NCBI RefSeq assembly: GCF_001640025.1
Contig: NC_031672.1
Span: 3,658,001-3,722,000, forward strand
From: Sugiyamaella lignohabitans
Taxonomy: Eukaryota; Ascomycota; Dipodascomycetes; Dipodascales; Trichomonascaceae
Reading direction: 5' to 3'
DNA: 64,000 bases
In this document: positions 4,826 through 61,962 of the stretch, piece after piece
Layout: each line of letters starts with the position of its first letter
Position numbering within the stretch: the first letter of the stretch is position 1
Program-made: the position numbers and the translations under genes
The notes under the pieces: generated by a model
Database searches by the model: none
What the model saw: the letters and a program-made list of their open reading frames with translations, nothing else
Told to the model about the DNA's origin: nothing

Positions 4826-6752
4826 AGCCAATTGTGAGGTGATGAACAAGAAATTGCAATCTCGTTTCTAGACTTCTCCACAACGACTGAATGGTAGACT
4901 TATATAAAATCACCGACAAGACAAACGAAAAAAAAGAGTTTGACAAGAACGTATAATATGTCTGAGTATTTAGGTTAAGTTCAGCATCTGCTGCACCGCC
5001 GCTATTTATTTGGGGTGTATTTTTCTATGCATTGTTTGTTGTTTTGATCTCTCCTAGTTAGGAGCTGTGCAGGTACACAAAGCAGATCCAAGGCATGATC
5101 GTCCGACGCTAAGCCAGTTGGGCCGAGATGTAAATAGTTCCTGTCAGCGGAGAAAAAGTTCAAAAAATGATATATAAAATACAACCGACTACTATTTCCT
5201 GTTGAATAGTGTTTTGGCCAAGGTTTAAACATGCATAGATTTTGTATTACGGGTATGTGTAATCGCTAGCCATCTACTTTAATCTTGATTTTACTGAGTC
5301 TATTTTGGCACCTGGAAATCACTGATTATGCGGCTTGCATACTATCACAGGTGGTAGGTGCAGGCTATTTTCAGTGGGTCTTGAGTCTATTGGATCCTAA
5401 GAAACCTTGCTGGCTTGTCAGTAGCATGGAATGGACGTTATGAAAACAGCGAGGTTGGTGAAGTCTGTATGGCGCGTATTAATGAGGCGGTAGTTTCCAA
5501 ATTTCTCAGCCATATTAATAAGAGGCTGTGGGTAATATGAGGTGAATGGTTGGTCGGCTGTTCAGTGACGCTATTAGCATGCATGGTATGACACTGGACG
5601 ACTGGTCCAGCAATCTCACGAGCGGGGATGTGATCTTGCCATGCAAGTACCACCTTTTGAAATGGCTGATGATGCCTCAACTTGTGCTGATTCAAGCCAT
5701 CATGCCATCCATGTATGCACGTAGTACCTGCCTCTGACCAGCACTCCACTTCTTGAGAAAATTATAAAAGAACTCTAGTTTGATCTCCTCTACCGAAGAA
5801 TTGACACGACCTGACAGTAACTGGTAAGAATTGACAGCTTATTACCCTGGTACATGTCAATCCAGTTAGAGTTCAAAAGACCGTCCGCTGCAGCTAGACA
5901 TATTTGCCCGTCAACACCTCACAGTAAGCTCATCCGTTTCCTGCGGCCAATCGAAGATTAACTGGCAGCTCCAGCACCTTTGTCTCACCAGACAATGGAC
6001 CTCAGGCCCTGCCAAGTCGTCACACAACTGCCATTGGCCAGTGACCTACCAAATAGACTGCCCGATGCAGTATAGCTGTTATGCAGGGACGCGAGGATCG
6101 GCCAGAATCTGTGCACATCTGTTTACAAATCCCGGCCCCGAGACTTTTCCGACGTTCGCGAGAAGTGCTACGGGACGGGGTCCTGCCTCCGGCAGCTGGG
6201 GCTGCGCCCCAGACCCCCCGGCTCCTCTCCCTTCGCTCGAGTCGGTGCGTACACGGTCCCAGAACGCTCCGCGAAGCGGAGCACAACGGGGTCTGGGGCA
6301 GCGTCCCAGCCGCCTGAGGCCTGTCCCCGTCAATAATGGTTCCGGGAGAGTGGTCGGAGGTGTTTAGACCGGGTTTTGTCCCCAGTCAGTCCTTTAGTAT
6401 CCGTGAGCCGGAACCCTTCCGACCGGAGAGGAAATACGAGTTGAATACGATACCTGGTGACTTTAACTGGGTCAATTGAGCCTCGAAAACTCACTCATGA
6501 GCTTAATTTGCAAAATATTACTTGAATTCGAGTGTTCGAGTGCCTGGAGATACTGCTGAGACTGATCACTTGCATCAGTTCACTTATTCCTATCGATGTG
6601 TATCGTTAAGAGAATATTTCAGTCAGATGTGCGATATTTACGAGATAATTTATTTCGACATGAACGAGCATATTTCCAGACCGCATGAGCTGATTATAAG
6701 AGTTCGTCAGTGGTCCATAGACTTCATAGATACCTCGTTTCGAAACTGTGCC
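4826..6752. other. Divergent intergenic region, chitin synthase / SCO1
   Basis: About 1.9 kb with only short unsupported ORFs (for example a 76-codon ATG ORF at 5002-5232 minus). It contains one diverged copy of the dispersed GC-rich element (6185-6320). No RNA gene was recognised. Confidence 0.6.
6185..6320. repeat. Dispersed GC-rich element, full b-c copy, diverged
   Basis: Left arm starts GCCTCCGGCAGC with a b-type tip; right arm has a GCTCCGCGAAGCGGAGC tip and ends CCGCCTGAGGC. Several arm substitutions suggest an old copy. The centre ACACGGTCCC matches other copies. Confidence 0.85.
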
Positions 6753-7751
6753 ATGTCTCTCACACTTGGCAAAGGCTGTATACCTTGGTTAGGCAACAGA
6801 GTACTTATTACTGGTGCTAGATCTTCTCGTTTAATATCCTCATGTCGACCTCTTCTGAACTCAAGTAAAGTTCCAGGGTCATCGCAGCCAGATCAAACTA
6901 ATCAGACAATCGAATCAAACGAATCCAAAAGTTCTGCTTCTCATATTGCAGATAATGGTACCGCTCGTCATGGATTCGATCCTAAAAAACCTCGAAAACC
7001 TTTGAGCAGAATTGCATTGGGTCAAGAGCCTGGCAAGCAGGGACCTATCTCGTCAGCCAGACAACCTGGTTTCATTAACTGGACTGCGGCTGGTATTTTC
7101 TTGGCTGTTGGCGGTGGTTTGACTTGGTATTTCCAGCGCGAAAAGAAGAGAATTGCTATTCGAAAGGAAGAAGAAGCTAATCAGAGTGTGGGCATGCCGT
7201 CTATTGGCGGTCCTTTCAGTTTGATTGATCAGAACGGCAACAAGTTTACTGATAAAGATATGCTTGGTAAATTTGCTCTGCTGTATTTTGGTTTCTCCAT
7301 GTGTCCAGATATCTGTCCTGAAGAGCTTGAAAACATGTCGAACATCCTCGACGATATCAACAAACCAGGCGAAGAGCACCGTCTACTACCAGTATTCATC
7401 ACCTGTGATCCTAACCGAGATTCACCAGAAGTGCTTAAAGCATATCTAGCAGAGTTCCATCCCGATATCATTGGCCTGACTGGTTCGTACGAAGATATCA
7501 AACAGACCTGTAAAGAGTATCGGGTGTACTTCTCGACACCTCCCGATCTCAAGGCCGGAGACGAGTACCTGGTCGACCACTCGATCTTCTTCTACCTCAT
7601 GGACCCAGAGGGCCGTTTTGTCGAAGCCCTCGGAAAAAACTACACTCCAGAACAAGTCAACGAGCGAATCAAAAGCCACATGGACGCCTGGGTCCCGCAA
7701 TCGCAGCGTGAACAGAAATCCAAGGGTTTCCTCTCCGGCTTGTTCTCCTAA
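6753..7751 (+). CDS. SCO1: Sco1-type mitochondrial copper chaperone
   Basis: Delivers copper to the Cu-A site of cytochrome c oxidase subunit 2 from the inner mitochondrial membrane. The ATG at 6753 gives 332 aa beginning MSLTLGKGC with an Arg/Ser-rich, acid-poor presequence. The frame continues upstream but only to a non-ATG codon. A single transmembrane helix lies at about residues 109-127 and the thioredoxin-like domain faces the intermembrane space. The copper ligands are visible: CPDIC (Cys184, Cys188) and the distal His276 in VDHSIFF. Length and order fit the Sco family. The gene is convergent with the AIM2-like gene, and a repeat element lies between the two stops. Confidence 0.96.
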   Translation: MSLTLGKGCIPWLGNRVLITGARSSRLISSCRPLLNSSKVPGSSQPDQTNQTIESNESKSSASHIADNGTARHGFDPKKPRKPLSRIALGQEPGKQGPISSARQPGFINWTAAGIFLAVGGGLTWYFQREKKRIAIRKEEEANQSVGMPSIGGPFSLIDQNGNKFTDKDMLGKFALLYFGFSMCPDICPEELENMSNILDDINKPGEEHRLLPVFITCDPNRDSPEVLKAYLAEFHPDIIGLTGSYEDIKQTCKEYRVYFSTPPDLKAGDEYLVDHSIFFYLMDPEGRFVEALGKNYTPEQVNERIKSHMDAWVPQSQREQKSKGFLSGLFS

Positions 7752-7806
7752 CTCTCCTGTCATCCACATCTGTATATATTCTCCTCTTTCTTTTAACGGG
7801 CAGCAT

Positions 7807-7941
7807 GCCTCCGGCGGCTGGGGCCCTGCCCCAGACCCTGTAGCTCCTCTCGCTGCGCTCGAGTCGTTCCGTCGACGGTCCCAGTAGCTCCGCGAAGCGG
7901 AGCACAACGGGGTCTGGGGCAGCGCCCCAGCCGCTGGAGGC
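7807..7941. repeat. Dispersed GC-rich element, full b-c copy
   Basis: Lies between the convergent stops of SCO1 (7751) and the AIM2-like gene (7987). Left tip is b-type, right tip GCTCCGCGAAGCGGAGC; the centre contains GTCGACGGTCCCAG. Flanks read CAT/AT at the two ends. Confidence 0.93.
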
Positions 7942-7986
7942 ATTTGTTCCTCATACCAGCTAATAATAAAAGTGTATTTAGTGTAA

Positions 7987-8875
7987 TTAGTTCTTGGGGA
8001 AAGACTGCTTGAACCAGGCGACGGCGTCGCAGAAAGCCTTCTCTTTAGCGAACTTGACAATGGGGTTGGTGATGTCACCACGGACAGCGAATCCGTGCTC
8101 GACGCCAGAGGCCAGGGTCGTGAAATAGGTGGCCTTGATCTCCTTGAGAGTGGCCTCGGTCTGCTTTCTCAACTCTTCGGTGTAGATAGTATCGGTCTCG
8201 GCACCGGCAATGAAGAGAGGTCCCTTGATAGCACGGATCTCGTCGATGGTGACAAACGAGGGGTGGAAAACAGCCACGGCGTGAACCTTCTTCTCGCCGA
8301 GAAGTTGGATGGCATACTTGGCTCCGAAACAGTATCCAACAGCTGTAATGTAGGTAGGAGCGTACTTCTTCACAATCTCTTCGTAGACAGTGTCAATATC
8401 AGGACGGGTCTTCTCAGGAGTGTGGTGAGGCAGCCAGTCCTTGGCAAAGTCGAAAGCTGGTCCGTTCTGTCTGGCAAGAATAGTGTCTCCCTTGAAAATA
8501 TCGGGTAAAACAACCAAGTATCCGGCCTCGGCATACTGGTCAGCCAACAATTGACTGTTGATGAACTCGTGACCAAAAACGTCGGGAAGGAAAAGAAGCA
8601 CGTTCTTGGATGATTGGTCTCCTACAATGTACGAGGCAATTCCGCCAAAGTCGACAGTCTTTCCAGAAGCTTCACCTTCTGTTTCAATTGTTAGTGTTTT
8701 TCTTTTGTGGCAGTCAATTGTTGGGTCGGTGAGTGCCTCCGGCGGCTGGGGCTCTGCCCCAGACCCCGTGGCTCCTGCTTCGCAGGAGATTGCTCGGTCC
8801 GTGAGGGGTCAACGGGGTAAACCTACCATGTCTGAAGCCTTTGGTACAACATTCTCCGGGAGGGTTGGAAGCCAT
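7987..8875 (-). CDS. AIM2: Dienelactone hydrolase family protein (Aim2-like), one intron
   Basis: Alpha/beta hydrolase of the dienelactone hydrolase family; the in vivo substrate of the yeast protein is not settled. Exon 1 is 8875-8827 (MASNPPGECCTKGFRH); exon 2 is 8678-7987; 246 aa. The intron (8826-8679, 148 nt) has donor GTAGGT, branch CTAAC and acceptor CAG with matching phase. It contains one arm of the dispersed repeat. The N-terminal GxCC pattern matches Aim2. The catalytic triad is Cys133 in GYCFGA, an Asp in GAETDTIY, and the His in GVEHGFAVRGD. Exon 2 alone has only a GTG start, which supports the split model. Confidence 0.93.
8735..8788. repeat. Dispersed GC-rich element, single left a-arm, intronic
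   Basis: TGCCTCCGGCGGC, hairpin with loop TCT, GACCCCGTGG, a-type tip. It lies wholly within the AIM2-like intron, between donor and branch site. Confidence 0.93.
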
Positions 8876-10444
8876 TGTTTATTGTGTGATAGATATTATG
8901 CAATTGAGACAGGTGATGAAAGCAATTCAACTCAATGAGTGTGTGTCGGAATAATAGCAATGAAAATTTCACGCTCAGGAACAAGATGGAAGTTTGCCGG
9001 TTTTTATATTTCTACTTGCCATCGGAGATTACGATATATCGAGGAAAATAACGGCAGATCGGCGCTAACTCCGATCGGCCGGCATACGGAAAACGGCCCC
9101 CTGGTTCCTAACCCAAACTAGGGGTAACCCCAGTAAACGGGTATAAACTCACCCATAAACGGCACAGGTTTCTCATATTTGACTGTATCTCACCACAAAG
9201 GGTCCAGAACTTTCTCTCTAGACTTTCTAGGATCAATATTAGAAGCATTGTCAGTTGCATTCAAAGTTTGGATCCGTGAGCCTGGAAATGTTAAATAACT
9301 GAGAATGGAGATATCATTGGATTCATTTAGTCCATTGCCGTTTAACGGAGGTAAAGTGACCAAAAAAATTCTGCTGGGTGTCAAAATCAGTTGAAAAGAG
9401 TACCAAAAGCTCCAGAAATATCACCAAGCATGAGTTCCAGACGGATGGTCCACAAGCGAGCCAGACAACTGTCTATCAGTGGGGTAACTACTTCTTCGGA
9501 TAGCCAGCATGCGGAAATATATGCGATATGACGGGCCAGGATATACGAGTACGAGTTGCAGGGAGTACTCTCAGTTGATTGGATATGAGGTGAGTGCCTT
9601 TGCACAGCCAAACATGTGTTTCGGAGAATACTCCGAAATGTGACACAAGCAGCTATCTGGCGATAAGTAATGAATGTGAATGAAATACTCAATTCTACCC
9701 CAGGTATCTCGATCACATCCAATATTCTGCGACGATTGGACTGGTAGCATCACAGCACCATAGTTGCACAGTAGCAGAATAACAAAATGCTACGGATGAG
9801 CTCTTATATCGTTCTTTAACCAGATCAGAGGTTTGCTGGCTGCAGGACACTGAACTGTCCAATCTTTCAAAATCGCAACTCAAACAGTAGTTGATCAGTG
9901 TCATATCGTCCATGACCCTTGAAGCTAGAAATTTCAGAGCCCATTAATTAATTAACCACAGGGCACGTAGAAGTAACTCCCGCGAAGCGGGAGCTACGGG
10001 GTCTGGGGCAACGCCCCAGCCGCCGGAGGCAATCAGTCCCCGACAGCGTATCCATTTGACAACGATAACAAAGAAGAATTAGAAATTGGTAGATTGAAGA
10101 AAGCTAATTAGTTTATTTAGCGTGAAAAGCGGCGAGATCAAGTCCGCGCGGAGAGTGTAGTCATCAGAAGTCACCTGCAAACAGGGTCCGAACGGCTTGT
10201 TCTATCTTTGACGAGATCGTCGGACTCGTGCATGATCTAGAAAAATTAATTTTGGTAGGTGATGCGATATAGCAACAAATACACAACCAAGTAGCCAGGA
10301 CGAACTGGTTTAACGGTTACGAGAACAAGAGTCACGAGATTCAATTATTTCGAAGTCAGCTCTTTCTCTTATAATTAATTATCCACAAAAAAAAACTATT
10401 TCAGCACTCATTCGATTCGAGGTATCAGGATAATATAGCTCACA
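8876..10444. other. Divergent intergenic region, AIM2-like / YAR1
   Basis: About 1.6 kb without a supported gene; the short minus-strand frames at 9190-9913 show no family signature. It carries one single-arm repeat at 9977-10030. Confidence 0.6.
9977..10030. repeat. Dispersed GC-rich element, single right arm
   Basis: Tip is CTCCCGCGAAGCGGGAG, a variant whose stem changes are compensated on both sides; loop AAC; ends CCGCCGGAGGCA. Confidence 0.9.
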
Positions 10445-11221: not shown

Positions 11222-11940
11222 TTATAAACCTAACGTCTGGTCTACCTGCTTGCGAACGATCTTGTTGAACTGGTCTCTATTTTCACGCCACATCTTGCTG
11301 GCATCGACATTGGCACCACTCTCGTCATTGGGTTCTGCCAGCATACTCATGACACTAATAAGAATCTTCTCGACGCTCTGAATAGGACTCCATCGCTCAG
11401 ACGCCGACTCATACATATTCGGGTCGTCGCCAGGAGCATGCAATATCGAAATACACACGGTACCGTCCTTGAACACTGTTCTTGTTAGACACTGTCGGCT
11501 GAGGGGCCATGCCTCCGGCGGCTGGGGCTGCGCCCCAGACCCCGTGGCTCCTGCTTCGCAGGAGAGTTTGGGCTTTTCTGGGATCTCGAAGAACCGACTC
11601 GAGCGTAGCGAGAGGAGCAGTGGGGTCTGGGGCGCAGCCCCAGCCGCCGGAGGCATGTCCCCCTTCGCGGTGAATACTTACCGTTAGGGTGGAAAATTGG
11701 GCAGGTGAATTTCATGACAGGTGGGCTGAGAGGGTAGTCTTCAGGGAATCTGAGGGTGGCTGGGAAAAGTCCGCCTTCGAAAGGAGTTCCTTCGGGGCCC
11801 TGGATCAGACATTCCCAAAGGAAGAAGTTGTCTTCGTCGACAGGGCCAGCAGAGATTCCATCGGGTGGGTCATTGATGAGCTGTTTGTACTCGGTCATAA
11901 GACGCTTGGCAGCGGTCGAAGTTTTCGCTGTTTTCTTCAT
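11222..11940 (-). CDS. UBC7: Ubiquitin-conjugating enzyme E2, Ubc7 type, one intron
   Basis: E2 of ER-associated degradation, working with Cue1 and the Hrd1/Doa10 ligases. Exon 1 is 11940-11682; exon 2 is 11475-11222; 170 aa. The intron (11681-11476, 206 nt) has GTAAGT, branch CTAAC and CAG, phase 1. It houses a complete dispersed repeat. The fold shows the HPN motif at the exon junction, the catalytic Cys94 in GTVCISILH, and the acidic loop APGDDPN that marks the Ubc7/Cdc34 class. I chose the ATG at 11940 ([14 protein letters not shown]) because it matches the family's start. An in-frame ATG at 12096 would add 52 unrelated residues. Confidence 0.95.
11511..11654. repeat. Dispersed GC-rich element, full a-b copy, intronic
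   Basis: Complete element in the UBC7 intron, filling about 70% of it. a-tip left, b-tip right (GACTCGAGCGTAGCGAG), both hairpin loops TGC/GCA. Flanked by CAT on the left and ATG on the right. Confidence 0.94.
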
Positions 11941-13378
11941 GTTTTCGATATTTCCACTGCTAACAGATCGAATTTGTGCTGTGGGTCCTCGGCTGTGGAG
12001 TAAGCTTAACTGGCTGAGTGTCAGACCTATAACCGTGGTATTGGCTCTCTGTTTCCAGCGTATTAGCATATAATGCTTTAAAGCGTAACTGTTCATTGAG
12101 ACTTGGCTGGGGCCCTCTAAACGTTAAGAACACTGTTGTCAGATGTCTTGATCTGAATTACTTAGAATCATACTATGTACCATTGTGGTAGCGTGCGATA
12201 TGGCGTTTGAGCAAGATTATGGTTGTGTGGCCACTAGTGCCCGGAGAAATGTACGCGGATTAAATATATGTGTTCAACGGTATGCAAGGATGGGCGACAG
12301 AAACTGCGCTATTGAGCCTGATAGCGGTTAGGACGCTGCAACTCAGTAACTACTTATCACCACTGGTTATACCACCAATAATGTCTATTATCTGTTAAAC
12401 AAATAAATCAGTTTGATCCGTTTGTTCATTAACTCTTTCGTCATGTGACTCTTAAGAATATTCTGTACTATCTTGAAGTTTATTTGAGTGGTGAGTGAGC
12501 TTGAGATGAAGTGGCAGTATGTTTTAAGTGTAGTTATTACGTTTGAAGTATGGCGTCAGATAGTCAATTTTCCATTTTTATTAGTCAATTATTAAGTTAA
12601 GGGCTTAGGCGTCATCTTCATCGGTGTAAAACTTTGAGGACACTAGGAACAGCAACTTCGAAAGTCGTTGTACCACCCTTAGTAGTCTGTATGTATTCTG
12701 TATCTTTTGCTCTGTGTGCTCAGTATCTCCTGCTCCCTCTGAAAGAATAACTTTTGTATTCTCCCCTCGTAAATCTCCTGCGAAGCAGGAGCCGTGGGGT
12801 CTGGGGCGCAGCCCCAGCCGCCGGAGGCAGAACTGACTCAACAAATGACACCAGTCCGTAAGAGAGATATATGGATAGTACCCAGACAGTATATACATGA
12901 CATCACAGCGACGCAAATAATTCGCCATAAACTTGCACTTACCGGTTCCGGGAGTTTCAGGACGACTGCACTCGATCTATATATATCTTGCACCTTCCAG
13001 ACTAGACCCAAAATCATCATTTGACAGCGGGTGAAGCTTAAAAGATATAAGCGTAAATGTTTATTTACAGACAGTGCTGCAGATAACCCACGGACCAGCT
13101 ACGATCAGCTGCGGCGGCTTCACGGCACCGGCAACACGTGACTTTTTTTTAGATTTAGACTTCTAAGAAAGGTTTACCTTTGAGGATCTTGCAGAGCGAC
13201 CATATCAATAAGTTTGGAGGCAAGCCCAGCACGAAAGTCGAAGCCGGTCTGATCCAGGAGAACCTCGAAGTGCTGCAAGTGCTGTTGTATGACAGAGAAC
13301 AGTTTATCAGGTCTGTGGAAAGTATCCCCCGACTTACATGCTGTAGATGCCCGACTGTGAATTGACTCACCTAGCCCC
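11941..13378. other. Divergent intergenic region, UBC7 / copper-fist gene
   Basis: 1.4 kb promoter-like region with one single-arm repeat (12775-12828). A 70-codon minus-strand ORF (13386-13174) overlaps the start of the copper-fist gene and matches no family I know. Minus-strand sequence at about 12605-12640 could end a small exon, but no partner exon is visible. Confidence 0.5.
12775..12828. repeat. Dispersed GC-rich element, single right a-arm
   Basis: Tip CTCCTGCGAAGCAGGAG, then CCGTGGGGTC, hairpin with GCA loop, end CCGCCGGAGGCA. Confidence 0.92.
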
Positions 13379-15686
13379 ATGATCATCTACGAGGGCGAGA
13401 AGTACGCATGGTAGGTTCTCCAAACCTGGTTTTTCCTTTGTTTCTCTCGGGTTCAAGAGCTGGGATTTCTGGAGGTCTGCCTCCGGCGGCTGGGGCTCCG
13501 CCCCAGACCCCGCTGCTCCTCTCGCTTCGCTCGAGTCGTTGCGTCGACGGTCCCGAAGTTAGAGGATGTGGTAAAGAGTTGTATTTCTGTGGTCCGCCCA
13601 AAAAAACTCCTGCGAAGCAGGAGCAACGGGGTCTGGGGCAGCGCCCCAGCCGCCGGAGGCGCCGACCCTCCCGCAAACTGTGCCCAGATACTAACAGTGT
13701 CGTAGTCTGCCATGCATTCGGGGCCATCGTTCTTCGACGTGCGAGCACAAGGAGAGGCCGCTGCTGCTGGTTCGGAAGCGTGGAAGGCCTATGAGCTCGG
13801 CCATTGCTCGGGTTGCTATTGTTCCCGAGAATGTCGACAGTGTTAGTGATAGTGGGGACTCGGGTTCGGTAGTTGGAAACTCCGACCAGTTCAGAACAGA
13901 TTTGGGTGCCTTGAGTAGTACTGGTTTGGCTGGCCAGGAAAATGTAAATATCAAACAGGTACCAGCTATGGCATTAGATCGGTTTGGTAATGGCGAGATT
14001 GCAGGATTGGGTGTGCAGGCACAGACCGCCAGTCTGCAGCAAGATCTCACCCAAAGTCCGGTGCATGCTCTGAGACAGACTCCAGATGCCGGTTTTGCAC
14101 AGAATTCTACGTTTATTTTGACTCAGGGGTCATCATTACAGGGCCATATTCATGGCTTTTTACAGGGATCGGATCCCGGGTTGAACTCGTCAAACTCGAG
14201 TATACCCTCTGGATCTATGAATTTTGGGTTGGATAGTACTGGAGTTATGGCTCAAAGCACGACACCGTTAGGACCAACAGGTTCTTATAATGATGCTTCT
14301 CATGTTCAGAGCTCGCTGGGTATGCGTGGTTCGGGTTTGTGGACTACCAGATCTAATGGCAGTCTAGGAAGTTCCGGCAGTTTAGGTAGCGGCTGTGATA
14401 GCAGCTCGAGTTCGGGTTGCGCTAGATGTGGAAACGGAGGTCGGTGCCAGTGTAAGAGTGATAGTTCGGTCATAGTGATTGAACCTGGAAAGCATTATAA
14501 ACAGTTGGTTGACACAAGTGGAGGAACAGTGAGAATAGTCGGTCCTCCAATGAATAATAATGATCTATATGACAAGGGCGATATCAAATCACATACTCTG
14601 TTCAACACAGCTAAAAGAGCTCGTCTTAAAGTGAAAATGAATGCTGCTCGAAGAAGAACTGGAAATACCCCTACTTTAGTCGAGTCGCTAGGTCATGACA
14701 GCACTGGAGGGAGTAACAACAGTGCCAATAACGGCGGTATCCGAGATACCGGCAATAGCAATATCGGTAATGGTGGTTATAATGGTGCTGATGTATCGCC
14801 ATACTACCACAATGGCAGTGGAAATGGCCATGATACCAGTAGTATAAACAGTAACAGTAGTACTGCAGGTGCACAATCAATCAAGTATGAGGAAGAGGAC
14901 GAGCTGGATGAGTCCATGTATACATTTGTTCCAGTTGGAAATGGACTGTACCGAAAAGAACTGAAAAGCAATGTAAATGGAGGACTGAGCAGGTCACGGT
15001 CGAAAACCAGTACGTCTAGTAGCTCGCGAACTCCGCTTTCTTCAGTCAGCTCGTTGGACTCCATGGATCAGGTATTACAGGGTGCGAGAGCGACAAATCA
15101 TGGCGTGAAAACTGACCTGAATCACCGCTTTGACGCTAACCAGGACAGTTTTAACGACGCAAATGAGGTACCGATGGGAAGTTGTTGTGGAAATGGCCAA
15201 ACTGATGAGCCAATTGACAAATCTAGTATGCAGAATAGCACTGATAACGATGCTAGAAAGAACTCGAACTCTGTTGGTACCGAAACCAACTCAAATGCAG
15301 TTGGTGTACTAGGAAACGCTGCCCATACAGAGTATAATCTCGAAAGCACGCGCAATGGACCGCCATTAATTATCGCACCAATGAGTTTTGACGGTGCGAC
15401 ATTCTCGGAAATGGGGTTCACAGAGTCTAATCTCCAAACTTTCAACACCGATTTTAATAGTATCAAACTCGAGCAAGGAGATACAACTGCTCAGGCAGAT
15501 GAAGAAGACGAGATTAACTCGTTAGAAAGGCTGATTGATATGAGCCGTGGCGAGGACGGAGAATCATCCGAGTTCTACGACATTTATTATTCTGCATCAT
15601 GTGTTATTCCCGGTCAATGTGAGTGCGGTGACTCGTGCGCTTGTGCTGGATGTACCACACATGACCCAAACTATCAAAAAAATTGA
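13379..15686 (+). CDS. Copper-fist transcription factor (Mac1/Ace1/Cuf1 family), one intron
   Basis: Copper-responsive DNA-binding regulator. Exon 1 is 13379-13410 (MIIYEGEKYA plus two bases); exon 2 is 13706-15686; 670 aa. The intron (13411-13705) has GTAGGT, branch CTAAC and acceptor TAG. It splits the first zinc-ligand Cys codon and carries a full repeat. Splicing restores a textbook copper fist: C11-x2-C14-x8-C23-x-H25, with CIRGHR and the minor-groove motif RGRP at 36-39. The long middle is Ser/Asn/Gly-rich. Cys clusters occur at about 249-260 (CARCGNGGRCQC) and at 643-663, where CECGDSCACAGCTTH matches the C-x-C-x3-C-x-C-x2-C-x2-H copper-sensing motif of Mac1/Cuf1. That motif favours a regulator of copper uptake over an Ace1-type metallothionein activator, but this is inference. 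Confidence 0.94.
13479..13660. repeat. Dispersed GC-rich element, full b-a copy with enlarged centre, intronic
   Basis: b-tip left, a-tip right, in the intron of the copper-fist gene. The centre begins with the usual GTCGACGGTCCC and then has about 55 extra A/T-richer bases. Loops TCC and AGC. Confidence 0.94.
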
Positions 15687-19249: not shown

Positions 19250-20988
19250 ATTTTTTGTAATACCACGCTAATAACACAACAGTAGTGTTGAACTAAACCG
19301 GTCCAAACAATTACCTCGAGACCAACTAACTTATTGCGTACACGGGTCTGTGAGGATAAAACAACGCTATACTAACGCAGAGCTATAATTCAGGGAGAGC
19401 TATAGATCAGTCTGGATGATGTCGTCTGCCACGCATGAACACGGCATAGGGGTGAAATATATGGCAGCACCTAACAGGCCACAGCTACCAATCGAACCAT
19501 CGAACAGACGAAACCACCTGATCTGGCATTGATCTGGCACTGATCTGATGGATGGATAAATAGTGGTCAGTGATCTGACAAACCATTTGAGTATTGAGTT
19601 ACATTTCAGAGTAACGTGTAACGAATGCACTGACCCGGATCCGACTGGAGCTCCTGCTGATAACAGTAATGGAGCACAGTCTGGTTTTGGACGTTGATGC
19701 CTCACAGATCACAGCCAATCTTAAGGATGAGCGGAGCCTCAAATCGGTATTGGCATTCAAGCGAAGGGTTTTAGTAGATTGAATCAGAGCCAAGACAACG
19801 CTAATGCCGTGTTTCATATATCCTGGCACTATCTAACGAGATATAGTAATATTTTTTCACCCCTTAAAATTAAACTCATCAAACTAGGCGTTTACGCGGG
19901 CTAAATAATACACTAGTGTACTAATAAACTAGATTTAGGCTAGAACGTAGATTTCCAGGGAGCTAGCTTGATCTGTCGACATAATATAACTTGATCAGAT
20001 AGTAGGGTGACTGTAGGGTGACTGGACTATCAGTTTGTTGATAAACAGATCTACAAGTTAGCGTACCGAGAGAATTTTTTTTTTACTTGTAAAATTCTCT
20101 GATACTTTTACCGCTGAATTTCCAGCACGGTGAAACCTGCCGTTGGATCAACACTAACCCTGTATAAGCGGACCCGCTTATGCTGTGAGCCCATCATTGT
20201 CGGTGGTGGGGACTGTGGGCAACGGTGCACGGACCATCCTGTAAGATGTGGCCAGGACCACAACCTTGCACCAACTTGGCTTTGACAAACCAGCCACAAT
20301 AGTCCGTACCTATTGACCCTATATTTTGACTATAGTCGATTGGAAAAGATAAAAAAAAAATTGACTCGATTTAAACCAGTGTTACATTAAACAGATGGAA
20401 ATAGATTCAATGGTAGAAAGTTTTAGAAACAGTCTGCACTTGAACCAACCCCTCTTTACCGAAAGCCGACCAACCAACGGACTTTGCTACCCAACCAACA
20501 ATGGAAAAACAACTCCTTCCTTCCTTCCCCTCAGATAAATACGACCAAATCTCAGACATACATAAAGCAGAACCCTGTTGACAATTGGAAATAAACTACA
20601 GATGGACACTCACATACCCACGCTGGCCGACCTGGTTGGGAGCAGCGGCAGATCCGTTTTCTGCACAACACACGACAAAAAAGCAAGTCACTAACCGCGA
20701 TGCATAATTCCAGATTTGGACGCGACCGTTGGACTACTGCTACAAAAAGCAACGAGGCCCAACACCACGAAGATCATAGATAAACCTTGCTTGAGAAGAC
20801 GAAACGTTATCTATACAGTAGACGGTGCAATTAGGCTCGGTGCTTACACGACAGCGAAGCATCGGTACCAACCGGGAACTAGCAGAAATGAGTTGGTGAA
20901 ACCTCTGACGTTTACAGACCCTTAAGGTTAACTTGTTTGATACATTGGTGATTTCAGGGCTGTATGGATTAATACCGGGTCCGGAGGT

Positions 20989-21125
20989 GCCTCCGGCGGC
21001 TGGGGCTTCGCCCCAGACCCCGTAGCTCCTGCTTCGCAGGAGATGGCTGGGGCTGTCGGCGGAAACGACTCGAGCGCAGCGAGAGGAGCTGCGGGGTCTG
21101 GGGCGGAGCCCCAGCCGCCGGAGGC
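20989..21125. repeat. Dispersed GC-rich element, full a-b copy
   Basis: a-tip left, b-tip right, loops TCC and GGA, centre GGCTGGGGCTGTCGGCGG (modified). It is preceded by CCGGAGGT, which adds a second partial inverted end at 20981-20988. Confidence 0.93.
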
Positions 21126-21619
21126 CCCATTCCGACCCGCCCGTGTGCGCCGGCTGAAACAAATAACATACGGCGCGCACCGTCGGTCAACGGCACCGGT
21201 ACTGTTGACTTCCTGCTTCCGGTGAAAATTGCGATGGCGGTGATCCTATATCACATCACCGTACCGGCTGTGGTCTGCGGGGTCAGGATGGATTCGCTAC
21301 GACCCTGTCCCCCTCACCTTCACTGATGTTACTCTTCTTGTGCATGACACACGGCTGAGGAGGCCGATCGCAGAACGCTATCCACGCTTGTTTCCTCGCA
21401 AAAAAAAAGCCAATATCATTGCCAGATCAGGCTAGGGTGAAAAAAATATTTCGAGAGTGGTAATTTTTTTTCCTAGAACAGCACAGTAATTTTCATGTCG
21501 AAGTCTGTGAGTGGAATTAATTAGCCTTTGGATAAGCTCCAGACATGAAACCACGCTTATATAGAACAGGGTTTTACATATTAATTAACTGGGCTACGCT
21601 CTCGTATAACTAAGTATTC

Positions 21620-25477: not shown

Positions 25478-25815
25478 AGCTGTCAGCGTCGTTCCAAAAG
25501 AAAAAAAAAACAGTTTAGATGTTTGCACGCTTCTATTCATGTATATTATATTATATTTAGCATAGTGTTTACTCGGGTTACGAATCTCTTAATTTAATTT
25601 GTTTTATTGTCCACTTCTTCTCTTCTCCTCTCTTCTCACACATCCTGACCCCCTGGCACCCATTCCGGCTACTGACGGGCCGACCACGGCTCTCCACGTA
25701 CCTAGCGGACCAGCCACCGTCTGCACGGTCCCCCAGTACCCACATTCCACACTGACACATACCGCTTCGCCGGTTACCCACGCAGAGGCCACCTGCTGCT
25801 GTACGAGGACCCACT

Positions 25816-26403: not shown

Positions 26404-26463
26404 GCCTCCGGCGGCTGGGGCTCTGCCCCAGACCCCGTGGCTTCTCTCGCTTCGCTCGAGTCG
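26404..26463. repeat. Dispersed GC-rich element, single left b-arm
   Basis: TGCCTCCGGCGGC, loop TCT, b-tip ending CTCGAGTCG. Confidence 0.92.
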
Positions 26464-31660: not shown

Positions 31661-31688
31661 CATTGATCAAACCTGGTTGGGGGAGCAT

Positions 31689-35962: not shown

Positions 35963-36013
35963 ATATGATATTTATAAACAAATTCATTACAATAATATTA
36001 ATATATACATATA

Positions 36014-41990: not shown

Positions 41991-42119
41991 ACGGCCCGTG
42001 CCGGCTTGCACTGTCCTGCCGCTGTAGTCTGCGTGTATAAGATACATTATTTAATTATCCAGTTCATTTTGTACATAAATCATGGTTCATAGCACACACA
42101 TTCTGTGAGGGGGGGACAT

Positions 42120-42256
42120 GCCTCCGGCGGCTGGGGCTCCGCCCCAGACCCTGGTTGCTCCTCTCGCTACGCTCGAGTCGTTCCGTCGACAGTTTCAGCC
42201 ATCTCCTGCGAAGCAGGAGCCACGGGGTCTGGGGCAGAGCCCCAGCCGCCGGAGGC
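42120..42256. repeat. Dispersed GC-rich element, full b-a copy
   Basis: Between the convergent stops of MDM38 and DUT1. b-tip left, a-tip right, centre GTCGACAGTTTCAGCCAT; ends flanked by ACAT and ATGT. Confidence 0.95.
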
Positions 42257-42317
42257 ATGTTCCCCGCCAGCGCGAGTGATTAATTGAATTAAGTAAAGAA
42301 GGTTCATGGGTCGTGAT

Positions 42318-42761: not shown

Positions 42762-42954
42762 TATAGAGCGTGTAATGAATCGGATGTGTGAATAGCGAAT
42801 CGTGGAAAAGGTGGTCAAAAAGTGGCATCTTGATCTGGGACGCGTTCCCCCAATTTATAGTTTTTCCGCGTTGCCGCGTCTAAGCGCGACCTTTAATTTA
42901 CCCCCTGCATATGCACCGATATATGTCACTCGAGACGTTGGCGCGGGTGACTAT

Positions 42955-43008
42955 GCCTCCGGCGGCTGGGGCTCCGCCCCAGACCCCGTGGCTCCTGCTT
43001 CGCAGGAG
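42955..43008. repeat. Dispersed GC-rich element, single left a-arm
   Basis: TGCCTCCGGCGGC, loop TCC, a-tip; in the DUT1 upstream region. Confidence 0.93.
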
Positions 43009-45306: not shown

Positions 45307-45536
45307 GCCTCCGGCGGCTGGGGCTCCGCCCCAGACCCCGCTACTCCTCTCGCTCCGCTCGAGTCGGGCGCAAGTATCTCCTCAGAAACTCACTTCTCGG
45401 AACCCAGAAACTGTACCTCGCATCATCTGGCGACACCCACACGAGGTATTGGTAACAACCTTGAATTTCACGCCCAGAGTATCTCCTGCGAAGCAGGAGC
45501 CACGGGGTCTGGGGCGGAGCCCCAGCCGCCGGAGGC
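45307..45536. repeat. Dispersed GC-rich element, b-a pair with 115-nt spacer
   Basis: Left b-arm 45307-45367 and right a-arm 45483-45536. The spacer starts with the usual GGCG but then is unrelated sequence, as if something inserted into the centre or two single arms lie close. Confidence 0.92.
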
Positions 45537-46146
45537 ATTATGTCAAGGAAGACTGACAGAACCCCATGTTAGCAGGATGGAGATGTGACGATAATGATGT
45601 CAGAAGCAGAGGCACCGTTATGGCTGTACTCAATTCACAATCCTTGCCCGGGTGTTGAGGTTTGGGCTCGAGTCCTTTATTGTCTCGGTTATTATACACC
45701 GCCAACGCTATTAAAAACGTTATTTGAAGTTTGGATTCCACTGGTGATCTGCCGGTTGGTTTCCGGGTGTGGAAGAGGCCTCGCCCCTGCATAATGGTAT
45801 GCGGCTCGGCATTTTTTTCTGCACGGTGGGTAGTTTAATTGCAGCAGCATTATCGTTGCCTTTTGCTGCCACTATCGACTGACAGACCGGAAGAAAGGAA
45901 ACCCTGTATTTTCCTCACGCCTGATTTGTGTTGGATTTCCGATTTTCAGGTTAGCTATAGGAAATAAGAAGTCAGTTCTGGTATTCAAGAAGTTGCAGAA
46001 ATCTGATTGTCGATTGTGAGAGGCTGGGTTGCTACCGAACACAAAGAAGCAAGTCTGGTAAACCATTACCGAAGTCGAAATTGTTTAGACCCCAGACACC
46101 CAATTCTACTTTTAAACTTTGAATATGAACTAGATTATCCATTGGA

Positions 46147-48240: not shown

Positions 48241-48317
48241 TTTATCTATTTATTAACCTTATTGTACATACTAAATTAACATGCATAAAATAAATAATCA
48301 TTTCGTAACCCGTCTTT

Positions 48318-48371
48318 GCCTCCGGCGGCTGGGGCGCTGCCCCAGACCCCGTTGCTCCTGCTTCGCAGGAG
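48318..48371. repeat. Dispersed GC-rich element, single left a-arm
   Basis: Loop GCT, a-tip. Sits in the 155-nt gap between the convergent stops of MDM31 and SPP2, ending 25 nt before the SPP2 stop. Confidence 0.93.
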
Positions 48372-48395
48372 TTCAGGGTATTATGCTGGAATATG

Positions 48396-51832: not shown

Positions 51833-52512
51833 ATGCCCGGAATCCGACGAGAAGACCGACGCCAGAGCATCTTCGACTTCCTAGAACTCAGCCGGACCAA
51901 AAAACAGGACGCCCGGTACGTATCCCCCCTCCCCCTTCTCCACCCCAATCCCCACGAAAGCTCCGCGAAGCGGAGCACAACGGGGTCTGGGGCAGCGCCC
52001 CAGCCGCCGGAGGCAACACCTCCACCCCCTACTAACCCCTCACAGAGGTACGTGACACCCCCGCCACTCGACCGGTAACCGCACTAACACCGGAGCAGCC
52101 CAGTACCGCACCTTTGAGGGAGCGTACATTCGAACGGCCATTGGCCAGCTGTCGTTCAGTAAGTGCTAACGGGGTTGTGCCTCCGGCGGCTGGGGCTGCG
52201 CCCCAGACCCCACTGCTCCTCTCGCTTCGCTCGAGTCGGGCGTCGGGCCGGGACTAACGTTTAGGTCTGGTGATTTTGAAACTTTTCAGTGAAGAGTTTG
52301 TGCCTGTGGGCATTATTTTCACGGTGTACAGTCTTCTGGTGATTGTGATCGCGATCTTTCGACAGTCTCGCATCTCGGACTTGTTTCTTCGCAAACACAC
52401 GGCTGTCGCGGGCCACGAACACTATTACAACACCGCTGGAACGACGGTTCTGGCGCTCAGCATCCTCAACGTGTGCTGTTTCTCGGCTCTGTTGTACGCT
52501 CTGGCTCGGTAG
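51833..52512 (+). CDS. Small DUF202-like membrane protein, three exons, first junction uncertain
   Basis: Exon 1 from 51833 (MPGIRREDRRQSIFDFLELS); exon 2 52104-52158 (YRTFEGAYIRTAIGQLSF); exon 3 52265-52512, with two hydrophobic helices (VPVGIIFTVYSLLVIVIAIF and TTVLALSILNVCCFSALLYAL). Intron 2 (GTAAGT, CTAAC, TAG) joins in frame. Exon 1 followed by the strong donor GTACGT (51916) joins exon 2 out of frame. A weak donor GTATCC (51920) or a 4-nt microexon at 52048-52051 would restore it, giving about 129 aa. Both introns contain a repeat arm. The RTxxxx-helix-helix layout resembles DUF202 proteins; function unknown. It may be a recently damaged gene. Confidence 0.65.
51960..52014. repeat. Dispersed GC-rich element, single right c-arm, intronic
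   Basis: GCTCCGCGAAGCGGAGC tip, loop AGC; lies in intron 1 of the DUF202-like gene. Confidence 0.92.
52179..52238. repeat. Dispersed GC-rich element, single left b-arm, intronic
   Basis: Loop TGC, b-tip; makes up more than half of the 106-nt intron 2 of the DUF202-like gene, leaving only 20 nt to the donor and 15 nt to the branch site. Confidence 0.93.
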
Positions 52513-52515
52513 CCT

Positions 52516-52650
52516 GCCTCCGGCGGCTGGGGCGCTGCCCCAGACCCCGTGGCTCCTGCTTCGCAGGAGTTGGCTGGGACCGTGAACTTCCGACTCGAGC
52601 GGAGCGAGAGGAGCCGGGGGGTGTGGGGCGCAGCCCCAGCCGCCGGAGGC
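52516..52650. repeat. Dispersed GC-rich element, full a-b copy
   Basis: Starts 3 nt after the DUF202-like stop and ends 37 nt before the convergent RPT3 stop. a-tip left, b-tip right, centre GGCTGGGACCGTGAAC, loops GCT and GCA. Confidence 0.95.
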
Positions 52651-52687
52651 AGACTCCCCATCCCGTAAGAACTACTGGAGTGTGTAT

Positions 52688-53962: not shown

Positions 53963-54512
53963 GATATTTCTATTTATTCGTCTCTTTCTGCTGTTGTTAT
54001 CTGTCAGTTGACGCCACTATCAGCCAGTCAACGACACTCAAAATCAGCACTCGTGTACCTCGAACTTCGTTTGTTCTCGCACTTCTACCAATCCAATCTG
54101 TCCGCAAGCAGTACCAACGGCTCAGATCCAGTAATTGACGCAAAAAACAACCTCAAACAACAAAAAAACGGCTGCAAAATCTCACTTTCTTCTCCTCTGA
54201 CAGGTGTGTGTAATGAACCAACTTCGGTGATGCAGATGCTGCTGCTGATATTTGTAACCCTCTCGACCCTAACCCTACAGGACCCTGGGGGACCCTGGCT
54301 GCCTCCGGCGGCTGGGGCTCTGCCCCAGACCCCGTGGCTCCTGCTTCGCAGGAGTTGCTGGGACCATGGAGCCCGACTCGAGCGTAGCGAGAGGAGCAGC
54401 GGGGTCTGGGGCGGAGCCCCAGCCGCCGGAGGCAGTGCCCCCGCCAGGTGATACCAGGTGATACGAGAGCTTATTAGTATAAATAGACAGAAAAGCAGCG
54501 GGATTGGGGGGA
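53963..54512. other. Intergenic region RPT3 5' side / VWA gene 3' side
   Basis: 550 nt. I saw no exact proteasome element (GGTGGCAAA) in the RPT3 promoter. One full repeat copy lies at 54301-54433. Confidence 0.55.
54301..54433. repeat. Dispersed GC-rich element, full a-b copy
   Basis: a-tip left, b-tip right, centre GCTGGGACCATGGAGCC, loops TCT and GGA; 133 nt, the most compact full copy. Confidence 0.95.
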
Positions 54513-55988: not shown

Positions 55989-56526
55989 TATTCACTTAGT
56001 GTTAGCAAGCAATTGACTGAAATAACCTTAAAAGAATGCAATCGCAATGATATGAAAGTACCAAGGACCAAAAAGAACAAAATCCAATTGAAATTAGTCT
56101 GATACCTCGTAACCAATTGAACCCTGAAATACGGTAGTACTATCACACAAGAACACTATCGACCGACAATGAAGTGAGTAGAACAAGTCAATTGAGCCAG
56201 AAAGAATCAAAAAAACCCGAGAAAACCTGACACCGAAATGAGATTGTGAAGAAACCAAGTTCGTGCCAATACGGGAAAAAATCAATAAAACAAGAACAAT
56301 GCAACTTACGTCCACACATGACAATATATATACCCCATCCCATCCGAAAGAGGACCCAGGCTATCTGCAGCAGCAAGACACTCACGAGGCTGCATTTCCC
56401 CCTCAAACAATGGCGGTCCGCTGCAACGGCCTTTGTGATAGGCCACCCTTACGTTCCCCCGTGTAATGTGACGTCAAACCCATGCACGTCGCTGCAGGGT
56501 GTACCGGTCGAGGAAGGGAGGCACCT

Positions 56527-56660
56527 GCCTCCGGCGGCTGGGGCTCCGCCCCAGACCCCGTAGCTCCTGCTTCGCAGGAGGGGCCGGGACCGTGGACGCC
56601 CGACTCGAGCGAAACGAGAGGAGCCGGGGGGTCTGGGGCGCAGCCCCAGCCGCCGGAGGC
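56527..56660. repeat. Dispersed GC-rich element, full a-b copy
   Basis: a-tip left, b-tip right, centre GGGCCGGGACCGTGGACGCC, loops TCC and GCA; close to the consensus. Confidence 0.95.
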
Positions 56661-56907
56661 AGTCTCCCGGCCCGTGCGGTTCACACGGGCGCAATTGAGC
56701 TTATAAAGGGTACAGTTGGGGTTTAGGGGTGTAAATTGAGTTGATAGGGATCAGACAAGTAGCACAGGGAGTGAGAATCGGCGGGAGTGGAGGGGTGGAG
56801 TGCGCTGACGAGATCTGGTTCATGCAGGTGCGATCGCCCGATCAGCGGGCTATGCTCGCTTCCATGCATGATGCACGCTAACTCTAAGCCACCGGTGCGG
56901 CGGGGCT

Positions 56908-57042
56908 GCCTTCGGCGGCAGGGGCTGCGCCCCAGACCCCGCGGCTCCTCTCGCTGAGCTCGAGTCGGGCGTCCACGGTCCCGGCCATCTCCTGCGGAGC
57001 AGGAGCTACGGGGTCTGGGGCAGAGCCCCAGCCGCCGGAGGC
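56908..57042. repeat. Dispersed GC-rich element, full b-a copy
   Basis: Start diverged to GCCTTCGGCGGCAGGGGC; b-tip diverged (CTGAGCTCGAG); centre GGCGTCCACGGTCCCGGCC is the exact reverse complement of the centre of the neighbouring copy. Confidence 0.93.
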
Positions 57043-57054
57043 AGCACTGAACCC

Positions 57055-57108
57055 CTCCTGCGAAGCAGGAGCCACCGGGTCTGAGGTGGAGCCCTAGCCG
57101 CCGGAGGC
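57055..57108. repeat. Dispersed GC-rich element, degenerate single right a-arm
   Basis: a-tip intact, but the body reads GGGTCTGAGGTGGAGCCCTAG, with several mutations weakening the hairpin. Confidence 0.85.
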
Positions 57109-57460
57109 CCCCCTGGTAGGTCCGTTATAAGAATGAGATGCGATCTGTAGTGAACACGCGTCAAGCGAGATTTAGCCGTCTGTTTAGAATCATGAAGTCA
57201 TGAGTGACTGGCTGCGTGCTGCCAAGTGGACTGTGCTGTGTTTCTAGCAGGTTTGATTTTTTTTGGGTTACAGTCGAGTTTTTTAGTTTTTTTTTTTTGT
57301 CATTTCTGTGAAGTGTTGTGCTAGTATTGAGAAATCAATGGGGAATTGACCCAATTGCAGCGAGAAAGACACACACTTCGACTGGTTATTGAACTGATCT
57401 GGGGCTGGTTGCTAGAGTGCGTGCCTGGTGGATCTGGATCTGGTGATTTCTGTATAGAAC

Positions 57461-60538: not shown

Positions 60539-60573
60539 CCTATTAATAATAGCATTCGCATCCATCGCCTGCT

Positions 60574-60627
60574 GCCTCCGGCGGCTGGGGCTCTGCCCCA
60601 GACCCCGTTGCTCCTGCTTCGCAGGAG
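60574..60627. repeat. Dispersed GC-rich element, single left a-arm
   Basis: Begins 35 nt after the SGM1 stop; loop TCT, a-tip. Confidence 0.93.
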
Positions 60628-60650
60628 ATTCATACGCTCCGAGCACTGAT

Positions 60651-60704
60651 GCCTCCGGCGACTGGGGCGCTGCCCCAGACCCCATGGCTCCTGCTTCGCA
60701 GGAG
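60651..60704. repeat. Dispersed GC-rich element, left a-arm
   Basis: Start GCCTCCGGCGACTGGGGC, loop GCT, a-tip. Direct repeat of the arm at 60574. Confidence 0.92.
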
Positions 60705-60747
60705 TTGTTAGGGGAAAATGGGATATTTCGGGACACGGTTGGACAAA

Positions 60748-60801
60748 CTCCTGCGAAGCAGGAGCCACGGGGTCTGGGGCAGAGCCCCAGCCGCCGGAGG
60801 C
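60748..60801. repeat. Dispersed GC-rich element, right a-arm
   Basis: Faces the arm at 60651, 43 nt away; a-tip, loop AGA. Ends 59 nt before the HPT1 stop. Confidence 0.93.
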
Positions 60802-60859
60802 AGCACCGTCAGTAAAAGTGATTAGGTCTAGAATAATTTATAAGGGGGTGAGGGAGTGG

Positions 60860-61477
60860 TTAGTCGTTGCCCTGTTTGATGGCTTGAGCAGAGTGTTCGA
60901 CGATGTCTTTGGCCTCCCAGGGGTAGGCGATCCAGTAGTCGGGCACGGTTCGGGCAGCGAGGTAGCGGCCGGAATCGAGCATCTCCTTGGGAAGTTGGGC
61001 ACGTTTGGGCTTGTCCTTGTTGTGGAGCACGAAGATGAAGAATTTAGTGACTTCGTCGGTACGGCCGAGTTTCTCGGCTTGTTCTTGCACATCCTTCTCA
61101 AGTTCGGAAAGAGCGTAGTGTAAAGTGGTTCTGGTATCGTCGACTTCGTCAACAATCAACACATTCTTGCCAATCAGGTCGACAGAGTGCTCGGCCATGG
61201 CACCGAAGTCGAGCCATTGAGTACGCACAACCTCGAGACCAGCAGTCTCAACAACAGTATCGGTTCCAAGATCCTCGTAAAGAGACAAACCAATAGCCTG
61301 GATGGGGATGTTTTTGGCGTTCTCCTTCTTCAAGAAAGTTCTCAAGATACGGGCAGGGATAAAACCACCTCCACCAATGGCAATCATCAAATGAGGATTG
61401 AACTCCTTAATCACCTCAGCAGCCTCTTGACACAGCTTGTGAACGTGGTTGTACGAAATATACACTTTCTCGACCAT
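60860..61477 (-). CDS. HPT1: Hypoxanthine-guanine phosphoribosyltransferase
   Basis: Purine salvage: hypoxanthine or guanine plus PRPP to IMP or GMP. The ATG at 61477 (MVEKVYISYNHVH) gives 205 aa, similar to yeast Hpt1 (221 aa); a non-ATG extension upstream is unlike the family. The PRPP loop VLIVDEVDDTRTT is at 106-118; IAIGGGGFIPARILRTFLK at 33-51 and VPDYWIAYPWE near the end match Hpt1. Convergent with SGM1. Confidence 0.96.
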   Translation of the reverse strand: MVEKVYISYNHVHKLCQEAAEVIKEFNPHLMIAIGGGGFIPARILRTFLKKENAKNIPIQAIGLSLYEDLGTDTVVETAGLEVVRTQWLDFGAMAEHSVDLIGKNVLIVDEVDDTRTTLHYALSELEKDVQEQAEKLGRTDEVTKFFIFVLHNKDKPKRAQLPKEMLDSGRYLAARTVPDYWIAYPWEAKDIVEHSAQAIKQGND

Positions 61478-61737
61478 TGTTTTTGAGTTTGTTGTTTGTT
61501 TTGAAATCTTTTGTTTCGGGATACCGCAAACTAAATATGCGCAGTCGAAAAAAGTCCGGATCAATTTCCAGTATTTTTCTTTTTCCAATTTTTTTTTTCA
61601 GCAGCACTTCATCTGTGCCTCTCAGGCAGTGATCGCTTCTCAGCCGTCTGGGTCCCTGGCAGGTGGGTCTCAGGGCCACGAGCGGCTACGGGGCAGAGAT
61701 CTGCTAAGGGGTCTGTTCGGGGGAGGGAGGTCGGGCT

Positions 61738-61879
61738 GCCTCCGGCGGCTGGGGCTCCGCCCCAGACCCTGGTTGCTCCTCTCGCTGCGCTCGAGTCGGT
61801 TCTGGGGGGAGTCAGTGAGACGAGTCTCCTGCGGAGCAGAAGCTACGGGGTCTGGGGCACAGCCATAGCCGCCGGAAGC
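61738..61879. repeat. Dispersed GC-rich element, b-a copy, right arm decayed
   Basis: Left b-arm 61738-61799; right a-arm 61826-61879 with tip CTCCTGCGGAGCAG and body CACAGCCATAGCC, so the hairpin is broken. Confidence 0.9.
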
Positions 61880-61908
61880 AGCGCCCTTTCCCTCACGGTC
61901 CTAGCAAT

Positions 61909-61962
61909 CTCCTGCGAAGCAGGAGCCACGGGGTCTGGGGCGGAGCCCCAGCCGCCGGAGGC
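61909..61962. repeat. Dispersed GC-rich element, single right a-arm
   Basis: Consensus a-arm (loop GGA), in the same direction as the decayed right arm 30 nt upstream. The preceding CACGGTCCTAGCAAT resembles the element centre, so this could be half of a lost full copy. Confidence 0.92.

Follow-up and report, generated by a model that had tools for sequence, protein, structure and literature searches.

A 64,000-nucleotide stretch of the nuclear genome of the yeast Sugiyamaella lignohabitans (the window, bases 3658001–3722000 of contig C1, in a 15.93-Mb genome of four contigs) is densely populated by GC-rich near-palindromes, whose arms recur by the thousand across the genome and, at 30 fixed positions, are identical to dispersed repeats in bacteria. 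We tentatively read the yeast family as short, non-autonomous, hairpin-forming mobile DNA elements which belong to one superfamily with the bacterial repeats and have spread horizontally, and assign this reading a probability of roughly 0.45; an undescribed hairpin element may have crossed kingdoms. Counted towards a mobile element were the 5,807 exact anchor sequences and 3,480 exact arms in the genome, the far stronger conservation of the arms than of the centre between them, the varying hairpin stems whose pairing is kept, the shortage of arms in open reading frames (ORFs), the core shared with bacteria, and the presence or absence of the element at bacterial sites.

A dense family of repeat arms in a yeast nuclear genome

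Allowing up to two mismatches, the anchor of the arm, TGCCTCCGGCGGC, matched the window 45 times, against a mean of 0.75 in 100 shuffles (largest 3). Two of these anchors (11016 and 21669, each with two mismatches and no hairpin) were left out of the arm count, and the other 43 arms form 23 clusters when arms <300 bp apart are joined, extending from a first anchor at 6184 to a last base at 61963. A first-pass annotation had described a dense, dispersed family of near-palindromes here, with some 44 arms spread over about 30 sites; the family, its number of arms and its outer coordinates (to about one base) are borne out, and the sites compare with the 23 clusters counted here. The hairpin TGGGGC-nnn-GCCCCA, which it attributed to all arms, is present with its 6-bp stem in 38 of the 43, is shorter in two (6309 and 31688) and is lacking in three (56907, 57097 and 61868). 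Pfam matches were obtained for nine of 10 window ORFs tested, several of them fungus-typical (chitin synthase, MDM31/32, MDM33), and no Rfam family reached its gathering score in the window.

Genome-wide, the exact anchor was detected 5,807 times (2,918 + 2,889) and the exact arm, GCCTCCGGCGGCTGGGGC-N1..6-GCCCCAGACCCC, 3,480 times (1,754 + 1,726), with no match for the reversed-pattern control in either search. Further yeast results refer to a 314-kb sample (the window and 25 pieces of 10 kb each), a non-random set for which several pieces were picked from a dense region and which overstates density. The sample holds 198 arms, 162 of them with the exact anchor, and extrapolating from this share gives an estimated total of ~7,000 arms, nearly 3% of the yeast genome. 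Arm density is uneven (0 to 16 per 10 kb) and tracks the GC content of arm-masked DNA (Spearman 0.82, 31 bins), a correlation that undetected decayed copies could partly cause.

Conserved arms around a variable centre

Each arm is ~60 bp long and comprises TGCCTCCGGCGGC, hairpin 1, GACCC(C) and then a tip region, which is often a hairpin closed by GC-TTC-GC; the GCGAAGC loop of these tips is an unusually stable DNA mini-hairpin. The stem of hairpin 1 is TGGGGC in 184 of the 198 sample arms (stem of at least 4 bp), CGGGC in nine and shorter in five. The block GACCCCGTGG, previously named as shared by the arms, is indeed present, yet as only one among several variants; in a count of 202 arms, including four from five non-yeast loci (L239–L243) left out of subsequent counts, GACCCCGT occurred 77 times, GACCCTGG 44 times and GACCCCGC 27 times. 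Tips, which the first-pass annotation had not divided, are of at least three types, namely A, bearing CTCGAGTCG, B, CTCCTGC-TTC-GCAGGAG (48 of 198 by strict count), and C, either GCTCGC-TTC-GCGAGC (12 of 198) or GCTCCGC-TTC-GCGGAGC (6 of 198). The stem letters of hairpin 1 and of the tips differ among arms, with pairing kept.

The sample contains 57 facing pairs of arms spanning <320 bp, of which 29 measure 132–141 bp and 35 measure 132–147 bp, and most combine two different tips (AB, n = 32; AC, n = 7; AA, n = 5). The standard full copy is a near-palindrome of two facing arms, much as the earlier figure of about 135 bp had it. A consensus and a genome-wide search, both proposed in the first-pass annotation as checks, have now been carried out, yielding the 3,480 exact arms given above and a 138-bp majority consensus from the 35 copies of 132–147 bp. 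Agreement with this consensus is 0.97 at positions 1–34, 0.89 at 35–62, 0.58 in the centre (63–82) and 0.95 over the last 34 positions, the final value being somewhat lowered by centre indels. Retention or copying appears to act on the arms and not on the spacer. The copy at 54300–54434 folds into a long stem (z = −11.9 as DNA, −12.6 as RNA), and composite copies were also found, with two arms sharing one hairpin at L145 and a slippage-like duplication at L148.

Such a pattern of conserved arms and unconserved centres would also be expected of old, fixed repeats which do not transpose at present and which gene conversion or palindrome-driven recombination keeps alike. The composite copies and arms with a common hairpin fit this explanation, as does the 3-nt loop, which is common to the two arms of one copy at a rate of 0.56 (n = 52) against 0.34 for other same-locus pairs (n = 1,296). 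However, the next 10 inner positions show almost no within-locus concordance (8.17 versus 8.04), and homogenisation leaves the seeding of thousands of sites unexplained, hence we consider it improbable. An apparent concordance of these 10 positions was significant against a global shuffle and was discarded when it was lost under the within-locus control.

Outward from the yeast arms the flank is G-rich (43–60% G at −13 to −3). Left and right flanks are alike when inverted (6.98 versus a shuffle mean of 6.40 and a largest shuffle value of 6.89; 300 shuffles, 57 pairs), which we read as either a G-rich flank common to both sides or a palindromic target. The 150 bases at either end of each contig-end piece showed no telomere-repeat source of the G-rich flank.

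Placement of the arms relative to genes

Only 24 of the 198 arms lie within ORFs of at least 150 aa, compared with 104 expected, and several of these 24 are in ORFs of <220 aa which are taken to be spurious. Judged by this overlap alone, the elements have no ORF of their own, as had been stated from the letters. Bacterial contamination was ruled out as the source, because copies are located both between and inside eukaryotic genes. One copy accounts for 146 of the 206 nt of an intron at 11476–11681 in a minus-strand gene (GTAAGT donor, CTAAC, AACAG acceptor); the exons around it join into an uninterrupted protein, which we take to be ubiquitin-conjugating-enzyme-like.

Arms outside ORFs (n = 174) were tallied by spacer orientation where an ORF flanked them on both sides (n = 130). 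Spacers between convergent ORFs carry 2.9 arms per kb, versus 1.0–1.2 in the three other kinds of spacer, a preference that would suit selected regulatory DNA, in which the copies act as bidirectional terminators or barriers at gene ends and are kept by selection rather than by mobility. The purine-rich flank of the bacterial repeats described below also suits this idea, being on the other strand a terminator-like pyrimidine tract after the hairpin. We nevertheless find it very doubtful, as the yeast outward flank is G-rich rather than A/T-rich, copies are also found in divergent (31 of 130 arms) and tandem (62 of 130) spacers and in an intron, and a fixed 13-mer at thousands of sites is not needed for termination.

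The same arm in bacterial repeats

The first-pass annotation had likened the family to bacterial elements in style only, a limit that does not survive, because over 30 fixed positions the yeast arm is identical to repeats in bacteria. These repeats, in Roseococcus and other Acetobacteraceae, in Polymorphobacter and other Sphingomonadales, and in looser form in Solidesulfovibrio, have the same order of GCCTCCGGCGGC, a TGGGGC..GCCCCA hairpin and GACCCC. Like the yeast family they are dispersed and multicopy, often form facing pairs, and in the aligned cases lie between genes. On the strength of the letters, the shared blocks and stem suggest that the dispersed yeast and bacterial repeats are of one design. 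The region in common is limited to the outer 33–36 bases, and the bacterial repeats differ in tip, centre, flank (purine-rich, versus G-rich in yeast) and loop, which is 3 nt in yeast versus CC-nnnn-GG in most alphaproteobacterial arms.

At least 120 stretches were returned by a scan of prokaryote contigs for the arm. Titles among the matches listed were Acetobacteraceae, Roseococcus, Sphingomonadales, Polymorphobacter and Alphaproteobacteria, with the exceptions of one Deltaproteobacteria metagenome-assembled genome (MAG) and one Solidesulfovibrio. The exact arm occurs 1–267 times in each of 14 bacterial genomes chosen for having it (control 0), compared with 3,480 times in the yeast; named strains include Roseococcus sp. 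SDR (32 exact arms) and Polymorphobacter multimanifer DSM 102189 (42). The distribution is patchy, since in an even phylum-wide sample the exact arm was detected in just one of 398 genomes, the query genome itself. In viral contigs, GCCTCCGGCGGCTGGGGC matched 22 stretches, and seven of these, with a GC content of 66–69%, carry the complete arm, mostly as facing pairs (L006, L008, L012, L013, L015, L018 and L020). These seven IMG/VR “viral” contigs and an eighth, L219, are mutually homologous (~67–83%, with L006 and L020 overlapping at 100%), have their repeats between genes, and may be prophages or gene-transfer clusters.

A looser grammar, GCCTCCGGCGGC-N12..28-GACCCC with the hairpin left free, had 90 matches in viral contigs, and in 23 of them the gap was closed by a stem of at least 4 bp (TGGGGCC-type, n = 14). 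Three of 148 Desulfobacterota genomes contained it, with 180 matches in Solidesulfovibrio, 29 in G454 and a lone, hairpin-less match in the third, where the reversed control gave one match in each of two genomes. In the Roseococcus family it was present in 16 of 150 genomes (G010, 41; G603, 20; G677, 5; and 13 single matches); the single matches, of which only that in G702 is hairpin-like, are at chance level, because the reversed control gave seven matches in six of the 150 genomes. Between the same two blocks the bacterial hairpin-1 stem varies by genome (TGGGGC, CGGGGG, CAGGGG, AAGGGG); pairing is kept in 48 hand-chosen hairpins, which serve as an illustration and not a test, and hairpins are chained in some copies in G603 and G014.

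The tract before the bacterial arms (196 arms, L023–L142) is purine-rich, at 79% in −12 to −1 versus 56% in −40 to −21. In Acetobacteraceae this tract is often GAAAAAGG and, read outwards, resembles an intrinsic terminator.

A search of plasmid and phage records at E 1e-5 with a 236-bp copy found no match. A 135-bp copy, searched at E 10, matched 41 plasmid records, with coverage never above one third; a bacterial copy found no match, and for a bacterial arm there was a single weak one. Rhodobacterales seem commonly to have GC hairpins with GGACCCC after them, which one weak Roseivivax plasmid match (E 0.008) fits; if so, part of the grammar may be older and wider than shown here, which would also favour convergence. 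The yeast arm had six weak matches in phage records, and 22 of its bases (CTGGGGCTCCGCCCCAGACCCC) are matched at 100% in the honeybee-associated microviruses MH992176 and MH992187 (E 0.02) and at 95.5% in the inovirus MT135300 (E 0.7), families with single-stranded DNA genomes. These matches are weak and possibly due to chance.

Convergence is the main rival to common descent. Here the yeast and bacterial repeats would have separate origins and independent amplification, with the blocks and the GC hairpin meeting the same physical or protein need. It is favoured by the confinement of the likeness to the outer 33–36 bases (loop, tip, centre and flank all differing), the scattered lineages of the bacterial carriers, and the lack of a vector among plasmid and phage records at E 1e-5. 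We still hold it unlikely, as 18 fixed hairpin-flanking bases in the same order, on top of a common TGGGGC/GCCCCA stem, exceed what chance would produce, and a structural requirement would not by itself fix those letters. A Solidesulfovibrio locus (L122) moreover has both the stem, as TGGGGC-TTT-GCCCCA, and the yeast-like order of hairpin, GACCCC, second hairpin and GGGGTC.

Evidence for movement and a possible mover

Among 185 bacterial sites with the element, 45 comparisons of flanks were obtained, and two sites showed presence or absence. At one the element is found in L015 and L018 and in none of L012, L013, L219 and L006/L020; at the second, L060 has the element and L028 is empty, the remaining spacer also being different; other sites are shared. 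This shows gain or loss of the element, and not clean insertion.

Several results weigh against mobile elements that yeast and bacteria share. Borders at the bacterial empty sites are untidy, and loss is as possible as gain. The best 80 of 95 self-BLAST matches in the masked yeast sample, mostly chromosome-end repeats and arm remnants, held no usable empty site, and 35 full-length copies showed no clear target-site duplication at lengths 2–9 (uncorrected p = 0.04 at length 5, otherwise 0.38–0.85). The yeast genome has 13 RVT_1 matches; three retrotransposon copies in C1 and C3 (L270, L271 and L246) are 99.0–99.8% identical over ~4.5 kb, and none contains the element, which is mildly against very recent spread. 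The Y1 (RAYT-type) transposase had no match in the yeast genome, with five of 14 control genomes positive, and the Helitron replication protein had none in the yeast, in a search made uninformative by control genomes that were also negative. Finally, the yeast lacks the TGGGGCC-N4-GGCCCCA form of the hairpin seen in bacteria, and neither tips nor centres of the yeast type turned up in bacteria, where a single exact tip pattern was searched, in viral contigs, with no match.

Y1 transposases are also lacking in 12 of the 14 bacterial genomes, several of which are fragmentary MAGs. The matches were in Solidesulfovibrio (n = 2, one with a stop) and G009 (n = 1), and no full arm lies at the Y1 loci (L163–L165); a Y1 link is conceivable in Solidesulfovibrio, which combines its matches with 180 loose-pattern copies.

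If the family is mobile, its fixed blocks would be recognised by a mover or copier in the folded, single-stranded state of the element. A folded single strand with fixed feet is a plausible target because the letters of hairpin 1 vary while its pairing and the flanking blocks are constant, and the relevant passages of one source propose recognition of this type for IS200/IS605-like and REP systems (PMC2817692). Copying of the arms may rely on a trans-acting enzyme, or on break repair with template switching; with no Y1 found, an unknown enzyme or repair-based copying would be the options left. The yeast and bacterial families would then descend from one horizontally spread superfamily. That a gene-less superfamily, with two fixed blocks and a freely varying hairpin, moved between bacteria and the yeast nucleus and was amplified to thousands through a recognition system still to be described is a possibility we put forward with some doubt.

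Copies in the window and a chromosome-end repeat

Facing pairs close to the standard length are located at 6184–6321 (A + C tips, 138 bp), 7806–7942 (A + C, 137 bp), 11510–11655 (B + A, 146 bp, within the intron at 11476–11681), 20988–21126 (B + A, 139 bp), 42119–42257 (A + B, 139 bp), 52515–52651 (B + A, 137 bp) and 54300–54434 (B + A, 135 bp, the folded copy). Longer pairs include two with a lengthened centre, at 13478–13661 (A + B, 184 bp) and 45306–45537 (A + B, 232 bp), and one with two A tips at 25815–26020 (206 bp).

Solo arms on the plus strand, with approximate ends, have a B tip at 8734–8800, 42954–43020 and 48317–48383, an A tip at 26403–26469 and a 5-bp hairpin at 31688–31754. On the minus strand, with approximate starts, solo B-tip arms lie at 9965–10031, with the compensated stem CTCCCGC-TTC-GCGGGAG, and at 12763–12829. 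Two back-to-back arms were detected at 27404–27554 (minus then plus) and again at 51949–52244 (minus with a C tip, plus with an A tip), in both cases with approximate outer limits, and at 39873–40072 a plus-strand arm at 39982 is faced by an inverted match. The larger clusters are one of five arms at 56526–57109, with facing pairs at 56526–56661 and 56907–57043, one of three B-tip arms at 60573–60802, with a facing pair at 60650–60802, and one of three arms at 61737–61963, the outer pair of which spans 227 bp.

A separate, AT-rich multi-hairpin repeat is common to the chromosome ends L249, L250, L251 and L253–L256 (both ends of C1, C3 and C4, and the start of C2). Here too TTCG or GCTTCGC closes the hairpins, for example CAAATTTTAGGCTTCGCCTAAAATTTG. 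The end of C2 is unlike the others, and with a round 4,950,000 as its length this contig may be cut.

Relation to known palindromic repeats

No earlier description of the yeast family was found by motif letters or by topic in openly licensed PMC text, in keeping with the first impression of an undescribed nuclear family, and no published name for the bacterial repeats was found there either; papers matching the motif letters included one on an engineered Caulobacter gene and one on Streptomyces editing. Miniature inverted-repeat transposable elements (MITEs) are short and non-coding, with terminal inverted repeats and high copy number. The yeast family resembles them in its facing-arm terminal inverted repeats and, by the ORF-overlap test, in having no coding capacity, but differs in that the copy is almost fully palindromic and neither a target-site duplication nor a parent transposon was found.

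REP elements and BIMEs, associated with RAYT transposases, are presented in the relevant passages of PMC2817692 as short extragenic palindromes, often two close inverted copies, with compensated stems. All three traits, short palindromes, paired inverted copies and compensated stems, are seen in the yeast family. The REP foot GTAG/GTGG stands before the B tip in 26 of the 54 arms with that tip, a further likeness, but is absent from the shared outer blocks, and the Y1 transposase is lacking in the yeast and most of the bacterial genomes. The GC clusters of yeast mitochondria, GC42 among them, are, in the corresponding part of PMC4478555, likewise short GC-rich palindromes whose units merge and shuffle, with no known mover and a putative target-site duplication, AG. 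The present family is longer, two-armed and nuclear, on a 5.9-Mb contig, between and inside nuclear genes. Compared by description only, a further parallel is offered by the GC-rich organelle palindromes of Haematococcus and Stephanosphaera, which in the pertinent section of PMC7235400 are common to two unlike genomes of one cell and for which its author suggests horizontal movement.

Short GC-rich palindromes recur in mitochondria, plastids and bacteria, often without a known mover, and here one such family has thousands of nuclear copies and an exact core common to bacterial repeats. The old puzzle of palindromes without a mover thereby becomes testable. Should the two families have a common origin, they would offer one of the few examples of a non-coding mobile element that crossed from one domain to another.

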